Shown here: one piece after another, positions 45,564 through 59,463 of the stretch | How positions within the stretch are numbered: position 1 is the stretch's first letter | How the letters are laid out: every line of letters starts with the position of its first letter | Assembly: GCA_004124385.1 (NCBI GenBank) | Contig: SCKN01000006.1 | Span: forward strand, 62,001-126,000 | Source of the DNA: Fidelibacterota bacterium | GTDB lineage: Bacteria; Fidelibacterota; Marinisomatia; Marinisomatales; TCS55 | Length of the DNA: 64,000 nucleotides | Direction of reading: 5' to 3' | Position numbers and translations under genes: made by a program | The notes under the pieces: model-generated | What the model was told of the DNA's origin: nothing | The model's database searches: none | The model's input: the letters and a program-made list of their open reading frames with translations, nothing else

Positions 45564-46979
45564 CTAACGACCTTTTCCAGAAAGCATAACCCAAACGGTA
45601 CTTAACAAAATTTTGAAATCCAATGAAAAGCTCAAGTTCTCAATATAATAAAAGTCATATTTTAATTTTTGACGGACATCTTTTATGTCCTGATCGTATG
45701 GGTGTTTTATTTGCGCCCAGCCTGTAATCCCTGGACGAATTTTATGACGACGATAATAGAACGGAAATTCCTTCACCAATTTTTCAACAAAATAGGGTCG
45801 TTCCGGTCGCGGACCAATCAAGCTCATTCCGCCATTGATGACCATGAGCAATTGGGGTAATTCATCCAAGCGAAATCGCCGAAGTATCCGACCCATGCGA
45901 GTAATCCGAGGATCAGATTCTTTTGCCCAAACGGGTCCCGTTATTTCTTCAGCATTTGCTACCATTGTTCTAAATTTATAAATAAAAAAAAGTTCGTGGT
46001 TTTTACCCACGCGCTCCTGTTTATAAAAAACGGGGCCTTTGCTATCGAATTTTATAATTGCTGTTATAATAAGCCACAACGGCGATGATATAATTAACAT
46101 GGGTATTGCTAAACATATATCCATGAATCGTTTTATGATCGTGTTATAAACAGTATTAAGATTGGGATTGACTGAAATCAATGGCATTCCATAAATCTGT
46201 TCGGTTCTGGCCAACCCACTTATTACTTCATGGAGATCAGGTACTATTTTAATCGATACTGGAGAACCATTTGCTCTGGTAATTATTCGTGTAACGTGTG
46301 TGTGTTCCAATTTAACAGGAGCAATAATCACTTCTGATATTTGATTATCCAAAATGATATTTTTCAATTCCATCTCATGACCCATTACATGGAAATCTCC
46401 CTGATCTTCAAATGGTGGATCGTCATCCGATTGAACAAAACCCAATAAATCAAAACCCTGATGATTATTTATTTCTATATCATTAGCCACTTGAAAACCA
46501 CGATTGTTTATACCCACAATAATCGTTTTTCTTAAACCAAACCCTTTCGTTAAAAGATATTTTTGAAATGTTCTATATATCCATCTTGAAAGAATGAGTC
46601 CAAAAGACAATGCTAACCAATAGCGCAATATTTCCTGGGCAGATAACATCCATACGCCGGGTGTGAGAGCGTCTACTAATACTGCGATTAATGCGATCAG
46701 GAATGTTGTGCGGACAATTTGTTGAATTTCGTAAAACCGGGAGACTGTAGGCGCACTTCTGTATAAATTCATTGGTAGAAAAATCAAACCTAAACAAGTT
46801 TGTAATGCTGCATAAATTAAAAATAAATCAAGCAATGATAAATCGGAGTGGAGTGCGAAAATAGGGACAAGGACCCACATAAATGCAAATGCAGAATAAA
46901 CAGCATCAGAGAAATATATTCCCCAAGCTACTATCCATCGTGGATATCGAATACGTAAGTGTTGGAATGTTTCCAGCAT
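45564..46979 (-). CDS. polyprenyl-phosphate hexose-1-phosphate transferase (WcaJ-like)
   Basis: 471 residues. Four or five N-terminal membrane helices, a Rossmann CoA-binding-3 domain (TIIVGINNRGFQVANDIE near 158), another helix, and the C-terminal sugar transferase domain with KRFMDICLAIPMLI, GPVFYKQERVGKNHELFFIYKFRTM, FRLDELPQLLMV and LIGPRPERP. It links the first sugar phosphate to undecaprenyl phosphate and so initiates repeat-unit synthesis. Usual partner of Wzx/Wzy systems. Transcribed on its own, divergent from the Wzi-like gene. Confidence 0.93.
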   Translation of the reverse strand: MLETFQHLRIRYPRWIVAWGIYFSDAVYSAFAFMWVLVPIFALHSDLSLLDLFLIYAALQTCLGLIFLPMNLYRSAPTVSRFYEIQQIVRTTFLIALIAVLVDALTPGVWMLSAQEILRYWLALSFGLILSRWIYRTFQKYLLTKGFGLRKTIIVGINNRGFQVANDIEINNHQGFDLLGFVQSDDDPPFEDQGDFHVMGHEMELKNIILDNQISEVIIAPVKLEHTHVTRIITRANGSPVSIKIVPDLHEVISGLARTEQIYGMPLISVNPNLNTVYNTIIKRFMDICLAIPMLIISSPLWLIITAIIKFDSKGPVFYKQERVGKNHELFFIYKFRTMVANAEEITGPVWAKESDPRITRMGRILRRFRLDELPQLLMVINGGMSLIGPRPERPYFVEKLVKEFPFYYRRHKIRPGITGWAQIKHPYDQDIKDVRQKLKYDFYYIENLSFSLDFKILLSTVWVMLSGKGR

Positions 46980-47119
46980 GATTGAAATATTACCTAAATA
47001 TAGTAATCAATTAAATGTGCTGGATCACACCAGAACTATTGGGATCGCGGTACAGTTATACATGTTGATTTCCTTTTGTTGTTCAACTAACTGTTAGCGA
47101 TTTGAGGCGATAGTACTCC

Positions 47120-47149
47120 TTGAAGTTGCTAGAACATAAGGTTTATATA
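47120..47149 (+). promoter_or_regulatory. candidate promoter for the Wzi-like gene
   Basis: Plus-strand TTGAAG (47120-47125), 18-base spacer, TATATA (47144-47149) in the 238-base divergent region 46980-47217. No JUMPstart or ops element was seen. The rest of the region is AT-rich without clear structure. Confidence 0.25.
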
Positions 47150-47217
47150 TGTAAAATGTCAAGTAGTTGCCATAATTAATAGTAACCTATCTTTTAAAAA
47201 GTGTAGACTTATTATAG

Positions 47218-48831
47218 ATGCTTAAACAATATAAACGGATATATATTCGAATTGCTTCATACGTCTTAATTTTAGACGTGTTAACGGGTCAGAACATACC
47301 TGTCCCAATGAATCATCCAATAAATGATTTTATTTTACGCCTTTATACTCAAAATATAATACACGAAATTCATCCGGGAATGCGTCCGTTCTCAGTCAAC
47401 CAGATTAACCAAGTGCTTGATGAAGTATTCTCTACAGATCAACAGTTATCCACACGTGAAAAATCATTGGTGTTGCGCTTTAAAAAAGAGTTTGCAGTGA
47501 ATGAAATTAAACAAGGTCTCAAAGGACCTTGGCAATCAAAACATATTTCTACTGCTGTCCATACTATTTTTAAACCTTTTGATACGAATGATACTGAAAC
47601 AAGATTTTTATCATATCATGATGATGATTTATTAATGTGGACGGATTGGGAAGAATTTTTTGCCATAGATTTTCAAGACACTTTATCCAGATCATTTTTT
47701 ACTGACCGAGTTACCATTTCTGGAAAATTTGATAATAACCTTTCGTTTTACAGTCGCTATACACTTTATAGAGTGAGTCAAACAGAAAACTTTCCTCTCC
47801 CCGATGAATACAAACAAGGATATGTGCTGGAAGAGGATAATACAGATTGGCTTGTTTGGGATGTCAGTGAAGCTTCAATACGTTTCGACAACTCAATTAT
47901 AAATGCTGAAATCAGTAAAATACCTATTTATTGGGGATTCAGTAAAAAACATTCACCTATTTTATCTACACATGTCCAATCATTTTCATTTATACGGTTT
48001 TCAAAAGAGTATAAAAGAATTCGAGCACAAAGCTTTCTAGGATCTTTAGTCCCTTATGGAGACAATCGTAAAGGCATAATTGAGGAGAAGCATATTGCCG
48101 CTCATCGATTTGAATTTGATCTTACACCATCATTAACTGTTTCATTTAATGAAATGGTCATTTATGCCAGACAAAATATTGAATTGGGCTACCTGTTGCC
48201 CGTTAACTTATTGTGGTCCGAAGAACATGGGCTGGGCAATCGCGATAATGTACTTATGTCATTTGACGCGCAATGGAGTGTAAAACCAGGGTTATCTCTC
48301 TATGGAACATTTTTTTGGGATGAATTATCCTGGTTTAAACTTTTCAGTCCATGGTGGGGAAATAAATTCATTTTTCAATCCGGATTCCATTGGGTGCCAT
48401 TTTCTAACCCACAACTACCTGATTTTAGAGTAGAATTCACAGCAAGCCGACCATGGGTATATACACATCAAGATTCTCTGTTAAATTATACATCGGCAGC
48501 ACATGGACTAGGGTTCCCCATAGGACCAAATGCTCAAATGTTTTATTTGGAAATGAATATGTGGCCGACTTTTAAAACATTCCTTTCATTAAATGTATCA
48601 TATTTGAAAAAAGGAACGGGGATGGGTTCTGATCCAAATGATAATTATAGTTTAAGAAATGAAGAGCTAGACGATAAAACACCCATGTTAATGGGTAAAA
48701 TAAATGAACGTCTTGATGTTGGTTTAAACATCGAATTCAGGATGACAGAACTTTTATATATTAAAGCAGATATATCCTATAATGATGAAACATTACTATC
48801 CGGACAATGGGGATTATTGATGAATTTTTAA
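47218..48831 (+). CDS. Wzi-like capsule-associated outer-membrane beta-barrel
   Basis: 537 residues with an N-terminal signal sequence (about 1-25). The N-terminal VPMNHPINDFILRLYTQNIIHEIHPGMRPFSVNQINQVL is the helical lead typical of Wzi-family proteins (a two-repeat search for rank and place of the plug), and the rest is strand-rich with alternating aromatic residues (FYSRYTLYRVS, GLSLYGTFFWDELSWFKLF) ending in an aromatic GLLMNF, as expected for an outer-membrane barrel. Wzi anchors capsule on the cell surface. Sequence identity to E. coli Wzi is low, so this is a family-level call. Its stop shares the palindromic TTAA with the convergent GT2 gene. Confidence 0.68.
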   Translation: MLKQYKRIYIRIASYVLILDVLTGQNIPVPMNHPINDFILRLYTQNIIHEIHPGMRPFSVNQINQVLDEVFSTDQQLSTREKSLVLRFKKEFAVNEIKQGLKGPWQSKHISTAVHTIFKPFDTNDTETRFLSYHDDDLLMWTDWEEFFAIDFQDTLSRSFFTDRVTISGKFDNNLSFYSRYTLYRVSQTENFPLPDEYKQGYVLEEDNTDWLVWDVSEASIRFDNSIINAEISKIPIYWGFSKKHSPILSTHVQSFSFIRFSKEYKRIRAQSFLGSLVPYGDNRKGIIEEKHIAAHRFEFDLTPSLTVSFNEMVIYARQNIELGYLLPVNLLWSEEHGLGNRDNVLMSFDAQWSVKPGLSLYGTFFWDELSWFKLFSPWWGNKFIFQSGFHWVPFSNPQLPDFRVEFTASRPWVYTHQDSLLNYTSAAHGLGFPIGPNAQMFYLEMNMWPTFKTFLSLNVSYLKKGTGMGSDPNDNYSLRNEELDDKTPMLMGKINERLDVGLNIEFRMTELLYIKADISYNDETLLSGQWGLLMNF

Positions 48832-51004: not shown

Positions 51005-52430
51005 ATAATTCTGATTTTATTTCAGCTATCCAGCCAGTATTTACTTTCTTGAAAATTGTTGTCATTACTAGAATAATTATCAAATTAAATACAATGAATT
51101 GTGACACTAATGAAATTTCCAAAATAGACACAATATTATTAATTGCAACAAGACCTAAAATACTAATAATAATATCTCGAAATAATTTTGGTTTTAAAAA
51201 CCAATGATTGTAAAGTTTTTGTATGTAATAAGCACTTACACCTCCTGCTATTATATGGCTAATTAGGAAGCTAAATAAAGCGGTGGTTAGTAATTCAAAC
51301 TCAAATATTTTCCCAATAATAATTAAAACAATCATTGAAATCGCAGCTACTCCATATATTACAGAATTATATCCTTTTTCTGATATTGCATCGATTGGAC
51401 TTCGACTTAAACCAGAGAATGCATAAAATGGTAGTGCTAAAATTGCAAAACGTAAAATGGATACCCCAGAATTGCTAACATCACCTAACCACAATTTTAA
51501 AATTAATGGTGCATATATATAACAATATGTTGTTGCAATCACACTTAAAATAATACCACCTTTAAAAAATAAATCAAGAACTTTAGAAATATTTTCTCTC
51601 TCTCCTTTGGCAATCTTATTTGCAATGCGGGGAAGTAATACCATACCAATAGGATTTATAAATATTAAAGTGAGCCGTACTAAACTTAAACTTGAATTAA
51701 AATAAGCAATACTTTCAAAATTTTGGGATGATGCTATATAAATGGGAATACCTGCTAATAAAATAAATTGAGATAAAAAACTTGGTACTCGTTTAATCCC
51801 ATATTTTAATATTTTTTGTAAGATATTATAATTGATCGCTTTTAGACTTATTCCCTTGTTACGCATGAGAAATCCAAATACCATTAGAATTAAAACACTC
51901 GAACCAATCCAAAATAAACTATCGTATAAATTGTCAATATTTGTAAAAAATATAATTGGAATTAAAGCAGTTCCCAGAAGTTGAAAAATATTAGCTCCAA
52001 TCATATTCATATACCCTCGATATAAAGCATAGGTAATGAATTGAGAACTAACACCTAATGAAAAAATAATGTAGACCCAAAAATAGTTAGTATAAAAACC
52101 AGAAACATTATACCACAAGATTAAGAACACAAATAAAATTGTAAGTGGAATCGTAAAAATTATATACAAAATAAATGAATTATCACCATATGCCTTTTCA
52201 AAGTTTCTACTTAAATAATTTGGTAAACCTACATTCATACCAATTAAAAGGATTCCAACAAATGCTGATAATGTTCTTTTAACTAATAAAAATTCTCCAA
52301 GTACTTCTAACCCATGCATTCTGGCAATTATCCCATTTAGAATAAATACACCACCAATAACAACAAGGCCATTTAAAGCTGTCACAAGTAAATCAGATTT
52401 GAAAGAAAGTATTTGTGTAAATATTTTCAA
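50994..52430 (-). CDS. Wzx-type polysaccharide flippase
   Basis: 478 residues, about 12-14 membrane helices, MOP/MATE superfamily. NGIIARMHGLEVLGEFLLVKRTLSAF, ILKYGIKRVPSFLSQFI and FINPIGMVLLPRIANKIAKG are typical of Wzx/RfbX proteins. It moves the undecaprenyl-linked repeat unit to the periplasm. Four-base overlap with the Wzy-like gene. Confidence 0.87.
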   Translation of the reverse strand: MKIFTQILSFKSDLLVTALNGLVVIGGVFILNGIIARMHGLEVLGEFLLVKRTLSAFVGILLIGMNVGLPNYLSRNFEKAYGDNSFILYIIFTIPLTILFVFLILWYNVSGFYTNYFWVYIIFSLGVSSQFITYALYRGYMNMIGANIFQLLGTALIPIIFFTNIDNLYDSLFWIGSSVLILMVFGFLMRNKGISLKAINYNILQKILKYGIKRVPSFLSQFILLAGIPIYIASSQNFESIAYFNSSLSLVRLTLIFINPIGMVLLPRIANKIAKGERENISKVLDLFFKGGIILSVIATTYCYIYAPLILKLWLGDVSNSGVSILRFAILALPFYAFSGLSRSPIDAISEKGYNSVIYGVAAISMIVLIIIGKIFEFELLTTALFSFLISHIIAGGVSAYYIQKLYNHWFLKPKLFRDIIISILGLVAINNIVSILEISLVSQFIVFNLIIILVMTTIFKKVNTGWIAEIKSELYGR

Positions 52431-53821
52431 TTTAATACAATATTTTTCTGCACAGTTTTCAAATGCTTTACATAGTCAACGTGTGTTGATGCAATTGAAA
52501 TACTTATACACATCCATAAAACTCGATTATCATTTATATCACCGGAAAATTGAGCTGATATAAACATCACAATTGTTACTGCTACCCAAACTGCACTATG
52601 TTCTGAAAGTTTACCATTAATTATTCCAATTCTAATTTTATTAAACGATGCAATAAGAAATCCACTAAAAACAATAAAGCCCGTTAACCCGTATTCTACT
52701 AATATTTCAAAAAATACATTATGAGGATACCAGCGCCAGTCACGCCAAATAAATAAGGAACTAAATCCGCCGGCTCCTTTGCCCATTATTATATTCCAGA
52801 AAGATGAAGACCAACTTACAATTGACATCTGCCAATAACCTAAACGAGTAGCAACAGTGTTAACTTGTTTTACTCCTTCAGGAGTCATAAGAACGGCTCC
52901 TTTTGTAATATCAAAAAACCGTTTGGTTATTATTTCTGGCAAAATAAATAACATAGAGATTGATATAAATATTGCAAATAAACTATAAATATAAATTCTA
53001 TTTTTTTGTTGTTTTTCAAATATAAATGCATAAATCAAAACACCTAAAAAAATGCTTACTAATGGTCCTCTTGATCCAGTTGCAATTATTCCAAGTAAAA
53101 GCATCAGTAGCATAAACATTACTGATTTATTGTTATGAATTGATCTTTTTATTAAAAAAACTATCATTATTGTTGCACCGATTGCTAAATATCTACTAAC
53201 CTGAATTGGATTCGCTCCAGGTATAGAGAATCGATTATAATAACCTAGTAGGAATGCAAATTTTCCTGAAATTGCAAAATAAATAAATTGACTAATTATC
53301 CCAATCAAAATAATAAAAATCGAATACTTAAAATACTTTAGTATTTTTTCAGAATCTGAAGTTGATTTGATAATTATTAAAGGTGTCAAAAACATAGAAA
53401 ACCCAATAAAAGCAAAACGTATAACTTTACTCGTTCCATAAATTGGAGATGGTGTATAAAACAATGAAAAAGCAGTCACAAATATTAATAATATAAATAG
53501 AAATAATGGTTGTTTATGTTCATTTACAAATCTCCAATTTCCTTCAAAAAGTAATTTTATTAATCCAAGCCATAGTATTAGCGTTATAACAATTGTAGTG
53601 TCTAAAATTGAAAAGATTGGAAAGTATTGAATAAGTACACCTTTGATTACAGCTGTAAAGCTTAAAAGCATAAGTGTAAATCCAACGTGATTTATTAACA
53701 TCCACAAGATTACAAATCCAAGTGGTATAAAAAAGATCACAAATGGATGAGTTTTTATACCAACAATGATACAAACTAACTCACTTAATATTAAAAAAGA
53801 AAGTGAGATATAATTATACAC
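52427..53821 (-). CDS. O-antigen polymerase / ligase family (Wzy-like)
   Basis: 464 residues with about 11-12 membrane helices. The large periplasmic loop contains GKGAGGFSSLFIWRDWRWYPHNVFFEILVEYG, the Wzy_C/WaaL signature (HN...E..EYG). LLLGIIATGSRGPLVSIFLG is the other conserved stretch, with Arg. In this locus, beside Wzx and Wzz, a polymerase role is likelier than ligase; sequence alone does not separate them. Confidence 0.85.
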   Translation of the reverse strand: MYNYISLSFLILSELVCIIVGIKTHPFVIFFIPLGFVILWMLINHVGFTLMLLSFTAVIKGVLIQYFPIFSILDTTIVITLILWLGLIKLLFEGNWRFVNEHKQPLFLFILLIFVTAFSLFYTPSPIYGTSKVIRFAFIGFSMFLTPLIIIKSTSDSEKILKYFKYSIFIILIGIISQFIYFAISGKFAFLLGYYNRFSIPGANPIQVSRYLAIGATIMIVFLIKRSIHNNKSVMFMLLMLLLGIIATGSRGPLVSIFLGVLIYAFIFEKQQKNRIYIYSLFAIFISISMLFILPEIITKRFFDITKGAVLMTPEGVKQVNTVATRLGYWQMSIVSWSSSFWNIIMGKGAGGFSSLFIWRDWRWYPHNVFFEILVEYGLTGFIVFSGFLIASFNKIRIGIINGKLSEHSAVWVAVTIVMFISAQFSGDINDNRVLWMCISISIASTHVDYVKHLKTVQKNIVLN

Positions 53822-55503
53822 TATAAATTCTTTAATTGTTTTCTAAATTCAGATGAATAATGCTCTGAAAAGATATATATTATTGAAACTACAAGACCCA
53901 TTATTATTGATGCTATCACTATCAAAGATCTTATTGGCTTTGATTTATTAATTGGTACTTTTGGTGCATCAATTATTTGTAATGTGGGAATATTTTTAGT
54001 TTCTTCTAAACGAGCTGTTTCATATTGTGGTAATAGTAGTTCTAGGAGTGTATTTTGGATTGTTAATGCTCTTATCAATCTTGCATTTTCCATTCCTAAT
54101 TCAGGGAAATTATCAAAATTTATCATCGTGGGCAGGTATTCTAATTCATTATTTATCATCGTGGGCAGGTATTCTAATTCATTATTTATCATCGTGGGCA
54201 GGTATTCTAATTCATTTATTATCATCGTGGGCAGGTATTCTAATTCATTTATTAAATTCTTACCCTCTATTTTCTCTAAACCCAAAATGATATCCAGCAA
54301 CTGTTTATCCAAACTCGAAGTAATTAGATCTAATTGTTTTTCTTGTTCATTTAACATTACTTCATACCTCTTAATAGCAGGATTATTTGGATTCAATGTA
54401 GCTTTGGAAACATTTAACTGAATCTCAGTTTGAGCCTTAAGAGAATACAATTCAGTGTAGGCTATCATTTCCTGATTATAAAGTTGGCCATAGGCTTGCA
54501 TTTCTTGAATTTGCCTCCTTTCCTGCATTTCCTTTTCCTGCAGTTGCCTCCTTTCCTGCATTTCCTTTTCATGCAGTTGCCTCCTTTCCTGCATTTCAGC
54601 TTGTCGTGCAAACAGCTCCTTTTCCTGCAGTTGCCACTGCGTTTCCTGGATGTAGATTTGGCCATAGGCTTCATATTGTGCGCTTATTTGAGATACAATA
54701 TCTACTATACCCGTTTCTTCCTGGAAATCTTTAAGGTTTACTTCAGCTGTAGCTAAATCGAATCTTGCTTGATTTAATCTTCGTTCTAAAAATTCCCTGT
54801 TATATCGACCTTTATCCATACTTAGTCGTTGGTTGATATTATCCAGTTGAATTAGTAATTCTTCAACCATCTTTTTAGCTATAAGGGGATCCTTATCAAT
54901 AACTGATATTTTCATTGTACCTTCTTCAGTTACTTCAATTTCCATTTTTTCTTCAAAAGCTACCATTGCATATTCAATATCTTTTTCATCATATCGATTA
55001 ATTAAATCGAATTTTTTAACCATATGACTTTTAACAGATCTACTGTTTAAAATGGCAATAAACTTATTTATATCTTCACTTAAACTTGATAATCCAAAAT
55101 CTGCTACAGGTATTGGAGATAATGATGAAAGTAAACTGAACCTCCCTGTGTCAGAAGATAATATAATTGCCTGTGAAGTATACCATTTAGGTAAAAGTAG
55201 CGCAATAATGATAGAAACAACAGTTACAAATCCAATATTTTTGAGTATGAATTTTCTTTTTGTCCATAAAAGAAGTAAATTTTTCTGCATATTATTATCT
55301 GAAAAATCATCAATTTCGTTTATAACTCCTTGATTGTTAATTAACCCATATCTTTTCAAGTCACCTATTCGATTACGTAAAGTTTTTTCAGTCATTCCGT
55401 GTTCATCAGCTATTTGTTTCCTAGCATTAGGATCTATTAGAATTTCAGGATTTTCTTTGATTAAGTTTAATATTTTCTGCTCATGTGTGGATAATTTGAT
55501 CAT
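53821..55503 (-). CDS. Wzz-like chain-length regulator with N-terminal winged helix and 11-residue repeats
   Basis: 560 residues. Residues 1-65 look like a winged helix-turn-helix (LSTHEQKILNLIKENPE, then ARKQIADEHGMTEKTLRNRI and DLKRYGLI), followed by NLLLLWTKRKFILKNIG and TM1 (about 87-106). The periplasmic part has the Wzz fold elements and a long coiled coil, with MQERRQLxEKE repeated at 304-334 and (I/N)NELEYLPTMI four times at 418-461. PKVPINKSKPIRS and TM2 (about 524-545) end the protein. No BY-kinase domain. Wzz sets polymer length. The first gap-free overlap (one base) is with the Wza-like gene. An HTH on the cytoplasmic end of Wzz is unusual. Confidence 0.85.
   Translation of the reverse strand: MIKLSTHEQKILNLIKENPEILIDPNARKQIADEHGMTEKTLRNRIGDLKRYGLINNQGVINEIDDFSDNNMQKNLLLLWTKRKFILKNIGFVTVVSIIIALLLPKWYTSQAIILSSDTGRFSLLSSLSPIPVADFGLSSLSEDINKFIAILNSRSVKSHMVKKFDLINRYDEKDIEYAMVAFEEKMEIEVTEEGTMKISVIDKDPLIAKKMVEELLIQLDNINQRLSMDKGRYNREFLERRLNQARFDLATAEVNLKDFQEETGIVDIVSQISAQYEAYGQIYIQETQWQLQEKELFARQAEMQERRQLHEKEMQERRQLQEKEMQERRQIQEMQAYGQLYNQEMIAYTELYSLKAQTEIQLNVSKATLNPNNPAIKRYEVMLNEQEKQLDLITSSLDKQLLDIILGLEKIEGKNLINELEYLPTMIINELEYLPTMINNELEYLPTMINNELEYLPTMINFDNFPELGMENARLIRALTIQNTLLELLLPQYETARLEETKNIPTLQIIDAPKVPINKSKPIRSLIVIASIIMGLVVSIIYIFSEHYSSEFRKQLKNL
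54121..54252. repeat. 33-bp tandem repeat array A (4 units) in the Wzz-like gene
   Basis: Four head-to-tail 33-base units beginning TATCATCGTGGGCAGGTATT at 54121, 54154, 54187 and 54220; they differ only in the last few bases. On the minus strand each codes for an 11-residue (I/N)NELEYLPTMI unit (residues 418-461). The near-identity at the DNA level suggests recent expansion, and any copy change keeps the reading frame. Confidence 0.95.
54502..54594. repeat. 33-bp tandem repeat array B (about 3 units) in the Wzz-like gene
   Basis: Units of 33 bases built on TTGCCTCCTTTCCTGCATTT, starting at 54511, 54544 and (shorter) 54577, with a partial unit before. They encode MQERRQLxEKE (residues 304-334). 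Different sequence from array A but the same 33-base period, about 250 bases away. Confidence 0.9.
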
Positions 55504-56525
55504 TAGTTTATAGTCGCTTGATATGCTAAAATTAAAGTTGCTATTGAAGTTACTGCTTGAATAAACCCTGTATTTCCAAATAATATGCTTGAGTATGATT
55601 CTGGAACTTCGATGATATCACCGGGTTCAACAAATTCATTATTAGCAAATCTTATTATTTCTCCATTTGATCTAATTATTTTAGATCTATAATTTGAACC
55701 AATATCTAAAATTCCTCCGCTCATGGCAATATAGTCTTTGACTTTATAACCTGGTAAAAATTTTAATATTTTAGGGCCGCGAATAAATCCAGTAATAATT
55801 ATTCGATTATTATTATACTCTATAAAACTTTTCAGATTATCTTTTTCTAGTTCTTTAAATGGTACATAAATAATGTCTCTCTCTATCAATTGAGGATTAT
55901 TATTTAAATCACCATTTATTAAAAATTTCTTAAGATATATTTCTTTTGTTTCTCCATTTCGTTTTAAGAATATTTTATTGTTATCTGCATATTTTTGTAT
56001 TCCTCCGGCGCCATTCAAAGCATCGTACAATCTACTTACTGGTGTAACTTTCACAAATTTTGGATTATTCACTGCACCATGGACTAATACTTTAAATTGT
56101 CTTAATCTAATTAATGTAACCGTAATTATAGCTTCTTTATAAATTTTATCTTTGTAATCATTTAATTCTCTTTCAATATCTGCCAGTGTTTTTCCAACAA
56201 CATTTATTGGTCCAAGTTTAGGAATAAATAAAGTTCCAGTGGGATCGATTAAAACAAAATTATCTATATTTTCAATTGACCATTCCTTAGAAATAGATTC
56301 TTCATACAATCCACCAGTTATATTAATACGCAACCTATCACCAGGTCCTAAAATATATTTCTCTGGGTCTAATGTTTGTTCTAAAGGAATAGGAACACTT
56401 CCATATTCACGGTATAATATTGGTGTATTAGATTCTTCTATTTGTGGTAATTCTAGTGATTGAGAATTCTGTGCAATCATCAAGCTAGAAATTGTTAGAA
56501 GAAACGATATTTTTTTAATTGACAT
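55503..56525 (-). CDS. polysaccharide export protein, Wza-like (SLBB domains)
   Basis: 340 residues. Signal peptide (about 1-22, ending AQNSQS); no lipobox Cys. The PES/Wza domain is YILGPGDRLRINITGGLYEES and VLIDPTGTLFIPKLGPINVVGKTLADIERELN, followed by SLBB domains (VLVHGAVNNPKFVKVTPVSRLYDALNGAGG and ITGFIRGPKILKFLPGYKVKDYIAMSGG) and a C-terminal hydrophobic helix (about 315-335), which in Wza forms the outer-membrane barrel. It is the export channel paired with the Wzz-like protein. Confidence 0.9.
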   Translation of the reverse strand: MSIKKISFLLTISSLMIAQNSQSLELPQIEESNTPILYREYGSVPIPLEQTLDPEKYILGPGDRLRINITGGLYEESISKEWSIENIDNFVLIDPTGTLFIPKLGPINVVGKTLADIERELNDYKDKIYKEAIITVTLIRLRQFKVLVHGAVNNPKFVKVTPVSRLYDALNGAGGIQKYADNNKIFLKRNGETKEIYLKKFLINGDLNNNPQLIERDIIYVPFKELEKDNLKSFIEYNNNRIIITGFIRGPKILKFLPGYKVKDYIAMSGGILDIGSNYRSKIIRSNGEIIRFANNEFVEPGDIIEVPESYSSILFGNTGFIQAVTSIATLILAYQATIN

Positions 56526-58153: not shown

Positions 58154-59463
58154 CGTTTTTTTCTTCCCACATTGTCATACTTAAATCCCATTGTTTCTAA
58201 ATCGTCCATTCGTAATATATTTCTACAGTCTAAAAGAACAGGCGACTTTAACAGACCTTTTAATTTCAAAAGATCTAATCCCCGGAATTCATTCCATTCA
58301 GTCATGATAACTACACCATCGGCATCTTTTACTGCTTCTTCCCAAGAATCGAAGGTTTTCAAGTCATTAAATCGTTTTTTCATATTTTCATTTGCAGCCG
58401 GATCAAATGCTCTAATTAAAGCTCCATTTTTATTTAGGGTATTAATTATTTCAATTGCCGGGGATTCTCGAATATCGTCAGTTTGGGCTTTGAAGGCTAA
58501 ACCTAATATAGCAATAGTTTTATTTTTAATATCTCCATCAAAAAGATTTAAAAGTTTTTGAGCCATTCTTTCTTTTTGTAATTGATTAGCGACAACAGCT
58601 CCACTCACTACATTTAAATCTATTCCCATCTCTTTCGCCATAGAGATCAAAGCTTTGGTATCTTTAGGAAAACATGAGCCACCGTAGCCAGGTCCTGGAT
58701 GGAGAAATTTTGGGCTAATTCTACCATCAATACCCATTGCTTTTGAAACAACATGTACATCAGCACCGATTTCGTCACACATATTCGCTATTTCATTAAT
58801 ATAACTGATTTTTACAGATAAAAATGCATTGCTGGCATATTTTATTAATTCTGCTGTTTCAACAGTTGTTTCGATAATAGGTGTTTCATTTATATACAAA
58901 GGTCTATAAACATTTTTCATTGTTTTAAACGCTCTTGAACCTGAAGCTCCAATTATCACCCTATCAGGCCAGAGGAAATCTTTGACAGCAGATCCTTCCC
59001 TTAAAAATTCTGGATTTGAAACATAATCAAATTCATTAATATTTTTAGAAACATCTTTTATTATGTTAGTAATTTTTTCACCTGTGCCAATTGGGACTGT
59101 ACTTTTCGTACAAACAACTTTATATCCATTTAAGTTCTCACCAATCGCCCGGGCAACTTCATATACTGCTGTAAGATCTGAAGCTCCATTTTCGCCTTCT
59201 GGAGTACCGACTGCGATGAATATTACGTCTGCGTTACGAATAGCTTCATCGACATTCGCAGTAAAGGATAATCGGTTAAAATTTACATTTCTGTTTACTA
59301 ATTCATGTAGCCCGGGTTCATATATAGGAATTTCTCCCTTATTAAGCTGTTCTATTTTGGTTTTATCTATGTCTGCGCATACTACATTATGACCGTAATC
59401 CGAAATTCCGGCGCCACTAACTAAACCTACATAACCTGTTCCTATTACTGCTATATTCTGCAT
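58150..59463 (-). CDS. UDP-glucose 6-dehydrogenase
   Basis: 437 residues. N-terminal NAD domain GTGYVGLVSGAGISDYGHNVV, then AVGTPEGENGASDL, KSTVPIGTG and NPEFLREGSAVKDF; catalytic C264 in GPGYGGSCFPKDT; C-terminal UDP-binding domain with GLAFKAQTDDIRESPA. It oxidises UDP-glucose to UDP-glucuronate. Could equally be called ugd or tuaD. Head of the polysaccharide run; GAGAG lies shortly before its ATG. Confidence 0.95.
   Translation of the reverse strand: MQNIAVIGTGYVGLVSGAGISDYGHNVVCADIDKTKIEQLNKGEIPIYEPGLHELVNRNVNFNRLSFTANVDEAIRNADVIFIAVGTPEGENGASDLTAVYEVARAIGENLNGYKVVCTKSTVPIGTGEKITNIIKDVSKNINEFDYVSNPEFLREGSAVKDFLWPDRVIIGASGSRAFKTMKNVYRPLYINETPIIETTVETAELIKYASNAFLSVKISYINEIANMCDEIGADVHVVSKAMGIDGRISPKFLHPGPGYGGSCFPKDTKALISMAKEMGIDLNVVSGAVVANQLQKERMAQKLLNLFDGDIKNKTIAILGLAFKAQTDDIRESPAIEIINTLNKNGALIRAFDPAANENMKKRFNDLKTFDSWEEAVKDADGVVIMTEWNEFRGLDLLKLKGLLKSPVLLDCRNILRMDDLETMGFKYDNVGRKKR

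Follow-up and report, generated by a model that had tools for sequence, protein, structure and literature searches.

The stretch of DNA analysed here (the window, 64,000 nucleotides) encodes a polysaccharide co-polymerase (PCP) of the Wzz type that begins with a winged helix-turn-helix (wHTH) domain. We read this protein, with a probability of about 0.5, as a membrane-tethered one-component regulator in which the co-polymerase serves as the input module; DNA binding, target and signal are parts of this reading that we infer. An initial annotation of the window had proposed such a fusion and a link between capsule assembly and transcription. The gene and the parts of its product are as follows.

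53821-55503, minus strand: wHTH-Wzz, polysaccharide co-polymerase with N-terminal winged HTH, 560 aa, ATG start
55324-55503, minus strand: winged helix-turn-helix domain, residues 1-60 (HTH_24, AF2, Foldseek, order-wide conservation)
55348-55389, minus strand: recognition helix, residues 39-52, EKTLRNRIGDLKRY (AF2 and alignment of 49 homologues)
55192-55257, minus strand: TM1, residues 83-104, a hydrophobic helix in the AF2 model
55012-55272, minus strand: Wzz domain (PF02706), residues 78-164 (Pfam)
53869-54081, minus strand: GNVR domain and TM2, residues 475-545 (Pfam, AF2 model)
54118-54249, minus strand: 33-bp tandem repeat coding NELEYLPTMIN, 4 copies, a species-specific expansion in a low-confidence loop

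A Pfam scan of the 560-aa open reading frame (ORF) recovered both co-polymerase domains above their cut-offs (Wzz, 28.5 bits against 25.5; GNVR, 31 bits against 27.7), and this ORF holds the single Wzz domain of the whole 2.1-Mb genome. TM1 and TM2 (AF2 helices 83-103 and 525-559) flank a periplasmic helical body, and synteny and the Poly_export (OPX/Wza) and Wzy_C neighbours place the co-polymerase beside its partners. The protein is a kinase-less Wzz/GNVR polysaccharide co-polymerase and is predicted from its sequence to set the length of the capsule polymer. A second tandem 33-bp repeat (2.6 copies) lies at 54511-54597, and the two repeats enlarge a loop and a coiled coil relative to the Wzz of close relatives, possibly a form of length variation.

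The surrounding polysaccharide locus also contains a probable flippase and two glycosyltransferases, in addition to the genes below.

55503-56525, minus strand: wza (Poly_export, SLBB), its stop overlapping the wzz ORF
52427-53821: wzy
47218-48831, plus strand: Wzi-like protein, below the Pfam cut-off
45564-46979, minus strand: UndPT (undecaprenyl-phosphate sugar transferase), adjoining serS and plsC

In nearly all homologous loci wza is the direct upstream partner of wzz. The locus is syntenic and its chromosomal place is fixed across families (ybbR-tsaD-ugd...wza-wzz...UndPT-serS-plsC), while the wzy, wzx and glycosyltransferase genes vary between them.

Structure prediction indicates that residues 1-60 are a true winged HTH. 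In an AF2 model of residues 1-99, built from a 48-row alignment, helices at 6-17, 19-22, 25-34 and 39-52 are followed by a two-stranded wing at 55-60, with pLDDT of 92-95 across residues 11-50. The full-length model keeps the same wHTH and continues into a short low-confidence linker, TM1, the periplasmic co-polymerase fold and TM2. HTH_24 matches residues 1-67 alone at 23.4 bits, above the Pfam cut-off of 21.9, and scores 16.4 bits, below that cut-off, in a full-length scan. The best Foldseek match in the PDB is the Lrp/AsnC regulator PH0061 (2dbb, probability 0.99), and the remaining best matches are mostly DNA-binding regulators (AsnC, LexA, DosR, MepR and similar); the E-values, at 0.06 or worse, are weak and not significant by themselves, as expected for a domain of only 55 residues. 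The structural check proposed in the initial annotation thus came out in its favour, and the domain boundaries and motifs that it gave were right. The topology likewise bears out the claim that the wHTH is cytoplasmic, preceding TM1 in a Wzz co-polymerase. The protein falls outside the ToxR/CadC family: the Pfam scan of the 560-aa protein contained no match at E≤10 to Trans_reg_C (PF00486), the OmpR/PhoB-type wHTH. Transmembrane transcription regulators are widespread and are generally defined by a DNA-binding domain plus a TM (PMC10269533), and the structural part of this definition, a domain of a DNA-binding class joined to one or more TMs in the same protein, is present here.

The fusion recurs in related genomes. 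With E<1e-20 as the limit, a profile of the wHTH matched 60 of 245 genomes of the phylum; 59 of these belong to the order of the window's genome, and nearly all have a single copy, nearly always within frames of 340-510 aa. Such a distribution rules out a chance fusion, and an artefact is countered by dozens of independent assemblies that carry HTH-Wzz with intact ORFs. To avoid selecting for the HTH motif, we fetched 91 Wzz proteins through the Wzz family alone, covering most but not all of the order's matches. The wHTH is found on 51 of these (Candidatus Neomarinimicrobiota genomes of the order), a CI-type HTH on 13 and an XRE HTH on one (L013; HTH_3 at 38.7 bits); the rest are HTH-less PCPs, cut fragments, tyrosine-kinase-type PCPs and one apparent non-PCP frame.

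The wHTH is the best-conserved segment of the protein, TM1 and the linker being divergent. Among 49 non-redundant full-length homologues, with identities to the window protein down to 25%, the invariant positions include E8, P19, R28, A32, E39, K40, T41, R43, N44 and R45, and of the 14 columns that are invariant over the full length, 10 fall within the wHTH. The top residue of a column has a mean frequency of 0.85 in the recognition helix, compared with 0.48 in the Wzz part and 0.28 in the linker. As some of these homologues were gathered through the motif EKT[LM]RNR, the conservation of the helix leans on the unbiased sample, in which EKTLRNR occurs in 50 of the 51 wHTH-Wzz proteins and EKTMRNR in the remaining one. 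The recognition helix, with its invariant basic and polar residues (K40, T41, R43, N44, R45), is conserved order-wide. In one locus the wHTH is kept as a 77-aa ORF after wza (L108:10004-10237, plus strand) and the Wzz body with wzx lies inverted behind it (L108:10700-11335, minus strand), which points either to a misassembly or to an inversion that separated domain from body.

The wHTH also goes with different co-polymerase bodies. On a quick tree of the PCP parts, in which some branches are long, the wHTH proteins form at least two well-supported, separated groups, and well-supported branches force at least three changes of the wHTH label; the CI-type label needs at least two changes, and the XRE protein is placed elsewhere. 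The presence of the wHTH on separated PCP clades suggests that its job is tied to the locus and not to one PCP body. The CI-type HTH, in turn, also caps HTH-PAS-like proteins of about 240 aa (230-260 aa), in which PAS_3 scores slightly below its cut-off. A protein of this kind is encoded in the window's own genome (L228, contig C6, 66000-76000), and many members of the order have one, usually a single copy per genome.

Outside the phylum, three marine 'Euryarchaeota' metagenome-assembled genomes (MAGs) encode the same wHTH at 55-59% identity, followed by a single C-terminal TM.

L102, 5723-6076: stand-alone archaeal wHTH-TM, marine group MAG
L109: stand-alone archaeal wHTH-TM, marine group MAG
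L110, 5752-6096: stand-alone archaeal wHTH-TM, marine group MAG

No Wzz was found in these three MAGs, and the neighbourhood is not one of polysaccharide genes, with meaB and a dolichol-kinase-like membrane gene adjoining. Archaea seldom have this stand-alone form, a strong match being seen in one of 99 family members, and it probably reflects transfer between the domains of life. Its persistence without Wzz argues for a membrane-tethered module that is independent of Wzz.

A search for the DNA target gave a family-specific candidate. No DNA site common to all wHTH carriers was found; the loci checked by eye and alignment contained no repeated or locus-wide binding motif, and no shared motif was seen by eye in the tsaD-vwa699 and vwa699-ugd gaps. 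Family f13 has wza-wzz and serS in divergent orientation, and 17 of 17 spacers compared there contain the palindrome GCCCGGGC, in most cases some 10 bp upstream of a Bacteroidota-like promoter pair (TTTG, 20 bp, TAnnTTT).

L084-L111, for example L092:8047-8406: f13 serS/wza spacers with GCCCGGGC

The palindromic flanks vary in sequence (for example TCTGTGCCCGGGCACAGA in L090). At the wza promoter the palindrome is confined to f13; the promoters of the window's family yielded no copy, and the one in the window, at 59147, lies inside ugd. Judged from sequence, GCCCGGGC is the best operator candidate, for this family only.

The spacer at 46980-47217, which the initial annotation had put forward as a possible wHTH target, does contain a conserved element, but its covariation identifies it as RNA. 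Alignment of the spacer in 12 loci revealed a conserved block, AAGGAGTACTATCGCCTCAAATCGCTAACAG, the core of which has a single match in the 2.1-Mb genome.

47008-47121, minus strand: structured leader RNA, 5' of the UndPT gene (45564-46979), recognized by covariation, no Rfam match

The leader pattern occurs in 26 of 245 genomes of the phylum, 25 of them from the window's order, and lies 5' of UndPT or wza in every case; a reversed-pattern control had no matches in the 26 genomes. In an alignment fitted to the stem model, and so leaning towards it, 90% of cells in an 11-bp stem are paired over 30 distinct sequences, against 28-39% when the stem is slid out of register; nine of the 11 pairs changed on both sides, and none of 500 shuffles scored as high. 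When all families were aligned naively with MAFFT, the 3' arms fell out of register, so that no consensus leader fold emerged. The covariation led us to reject the conserved block as a wHTH operator, since an element that acts as RNA lends no support to wHTH binding there. A typical intrinsic terminator, CCGAATGTGATCCAGCGCATTCGGTTTTTT, closes the leader ahead of UndPT in families f10 and f14. The element at 47008-47121, which had no Rfam match at E≤1, may serve the locus as an attenuator-like leader; it is kept in several Neomarinimicrobiota families and is apparently undescribed so far. Its interior (47062-47024, minus strand) holds a possible Shine-Dalgarno sequence and a 12-codon ORF (MYNCTAIPIVLV) that may encode a leader peptide, and similar short ORFs occur in some near relatives.

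The regulator reading is favoured by the invariant basic and polar helix, the cytoplasmic position, the linkage to one locus, the exchange of bodies and the repeated recruitment of unrelated HTHs; the occurrence of HTHs on other PCPs, and of one kind on PAS proteins, makes a membrane-tethered one-component regulator the best reading. Wzz forms rings, which offers a simple switch. Wzz subunits would ring up with Wzy and Wza during polymerization and export of repeat units, ring assembly would gather the wHTH domains beneath the membrane, and the clustered domains would bind a site within the polysaccharide locus with higher (or lower) avidity, such that transcription would track polymerase assembly or substrate flux. 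In this scheme we infer DNA binding, its target, the oligomerization switch and the direction of regulation. More tentatively, and slightly short of an even chance, the polymerization machine itself may be the sensor, the HTHs of the Wzz ring reporting assembly or flux to DNA, in an arrangement that arose several times within one phylum from three unrelated HTH classes (wHTH, CI-type and XRE). Counted against the regulator reading are the HTH-less PCPs of the same order, the lack of a DNA site common to all carriers, and the fact that invariant polar residues also fit a protein interface. The regulatory claim of the initial annotation therefore stands in part, upheld by the wHTH, the tethering and the conservation across exchanged PCP bodies but not by the operator search.

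The main rival dispenses with DNA binding. RodZ is a membrane-anchored protein whose HTH binds a protein, docking MreB, and with this precedent the HTH of wHTH-Wzz would tie the co-polymerase to a cytoplasmic partner such as the cytoskeleton, the initiating sugar transferase, a glycosyltransferase or RNA polymerase. A single-copy gene at a fixed locus with an invariant polar helix would fit one conserved partner equally well. A common partner would not, however, predict that the PCPs of the order acquired at least three unrelated HTH classes, that the CI-type class also caps PAS proteins or that a stand-alone form persists in archaea without Wzz, and HTH_25 and the RodZ domain set are absent from the Pfam matches of the 560-aa protein, Wzz and GNVR being found instead. 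We consider docking unlikely, at roughly one chance in four by our own weighing.

Less probable again is that the wHTH binds DNA mainly to keep the polysaccharide locus near the membrane, in a transertion-like manner and with no switching; the membrane anchoring and a single-copy gene that holds its place in one locus agree with such a tether, which is at odds with the failure to find a repeated or locus-wide motif in the loci checked by eye and alignment. That the wHTH works with the leader RNA of its locus, through RNA binding or antitermination and not promoter DNA, is quite improbable. In the UndPT or wza operon the structured leader, with its terminator in some families, does stand ahead of the first gene, and 22 of the 25 leader-motif genomes of the order also carry the wHTH; this co-occurrence is not independent because both belong to the same locus, many wHTH genomes have no match to the leader pattern, and to our knowledge wHTH domains rarely bind structured RNA. 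A relic without function, in whose favour only the absence of a known target can be cited, is scarcely credible and already refuted by conservation, as the wHTH is conserved above every other segment of a protein whose identities fall to 25-30%.

The matching of long polysaccharide operons in their expression to the envelope machinery is usually put down to separate two-component systems, RfaH-type factors or kinases. If the regulator reading is true, a co-polymerase that itself bears a DNA-binding domain would connect the machinery to transcription by the shortest possible route, and would provide a handle on gene control in uncultured Marinimicrobia (SAR406). At 60 residues the domain is small and looks soluble, and it can be tested in vitro with no need to culture the organism. 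Among the matches from an open-access library, no paper dealt with HTH-Wzz fusions.

Among known systems, wHTH-Wzz resembles other Wzz/PCP co-polymerases in its Wzz and GNVR domains, two TMs, periplasmic helical body and adjoining wza and wzy, and differs in its cytoplasmic part, where a winged HTH within about 80 residues replaces the typical short tail, and in its extra repeat-expanded loop. With ToxR, CadC and TcpP it shares the order of N-terminal cytoplasmic wHTH, TM and periplasmic part, whereas its wHTH is HTH_24/Lrp-like and not OmpR-type, its periplasmic part is a component of an export machine and a second TM is present. RodZ likewise combines an N-terminal HTH, a TM, a periplasmic region and an envelope function, but with another HTH class and another periplasmic domain. 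Residues 1-60 find their best fold and profile matches in the Lrp/AsnC winged HTH (PH0061, 2dbb) and HTH_24, yet wHTH-Wzz has no RAM effector domain and is fused to a membrane co-polymerase. The leader at 47008-47121 recalls the JUMPstart/ops leaders of RfaH in lying conserved ahead of polysaccharide genes; unlike them, it takes the form of a covarying RNA stem, which some families follow with a terminator, and no sign of RfaH-type recruitment was seen.
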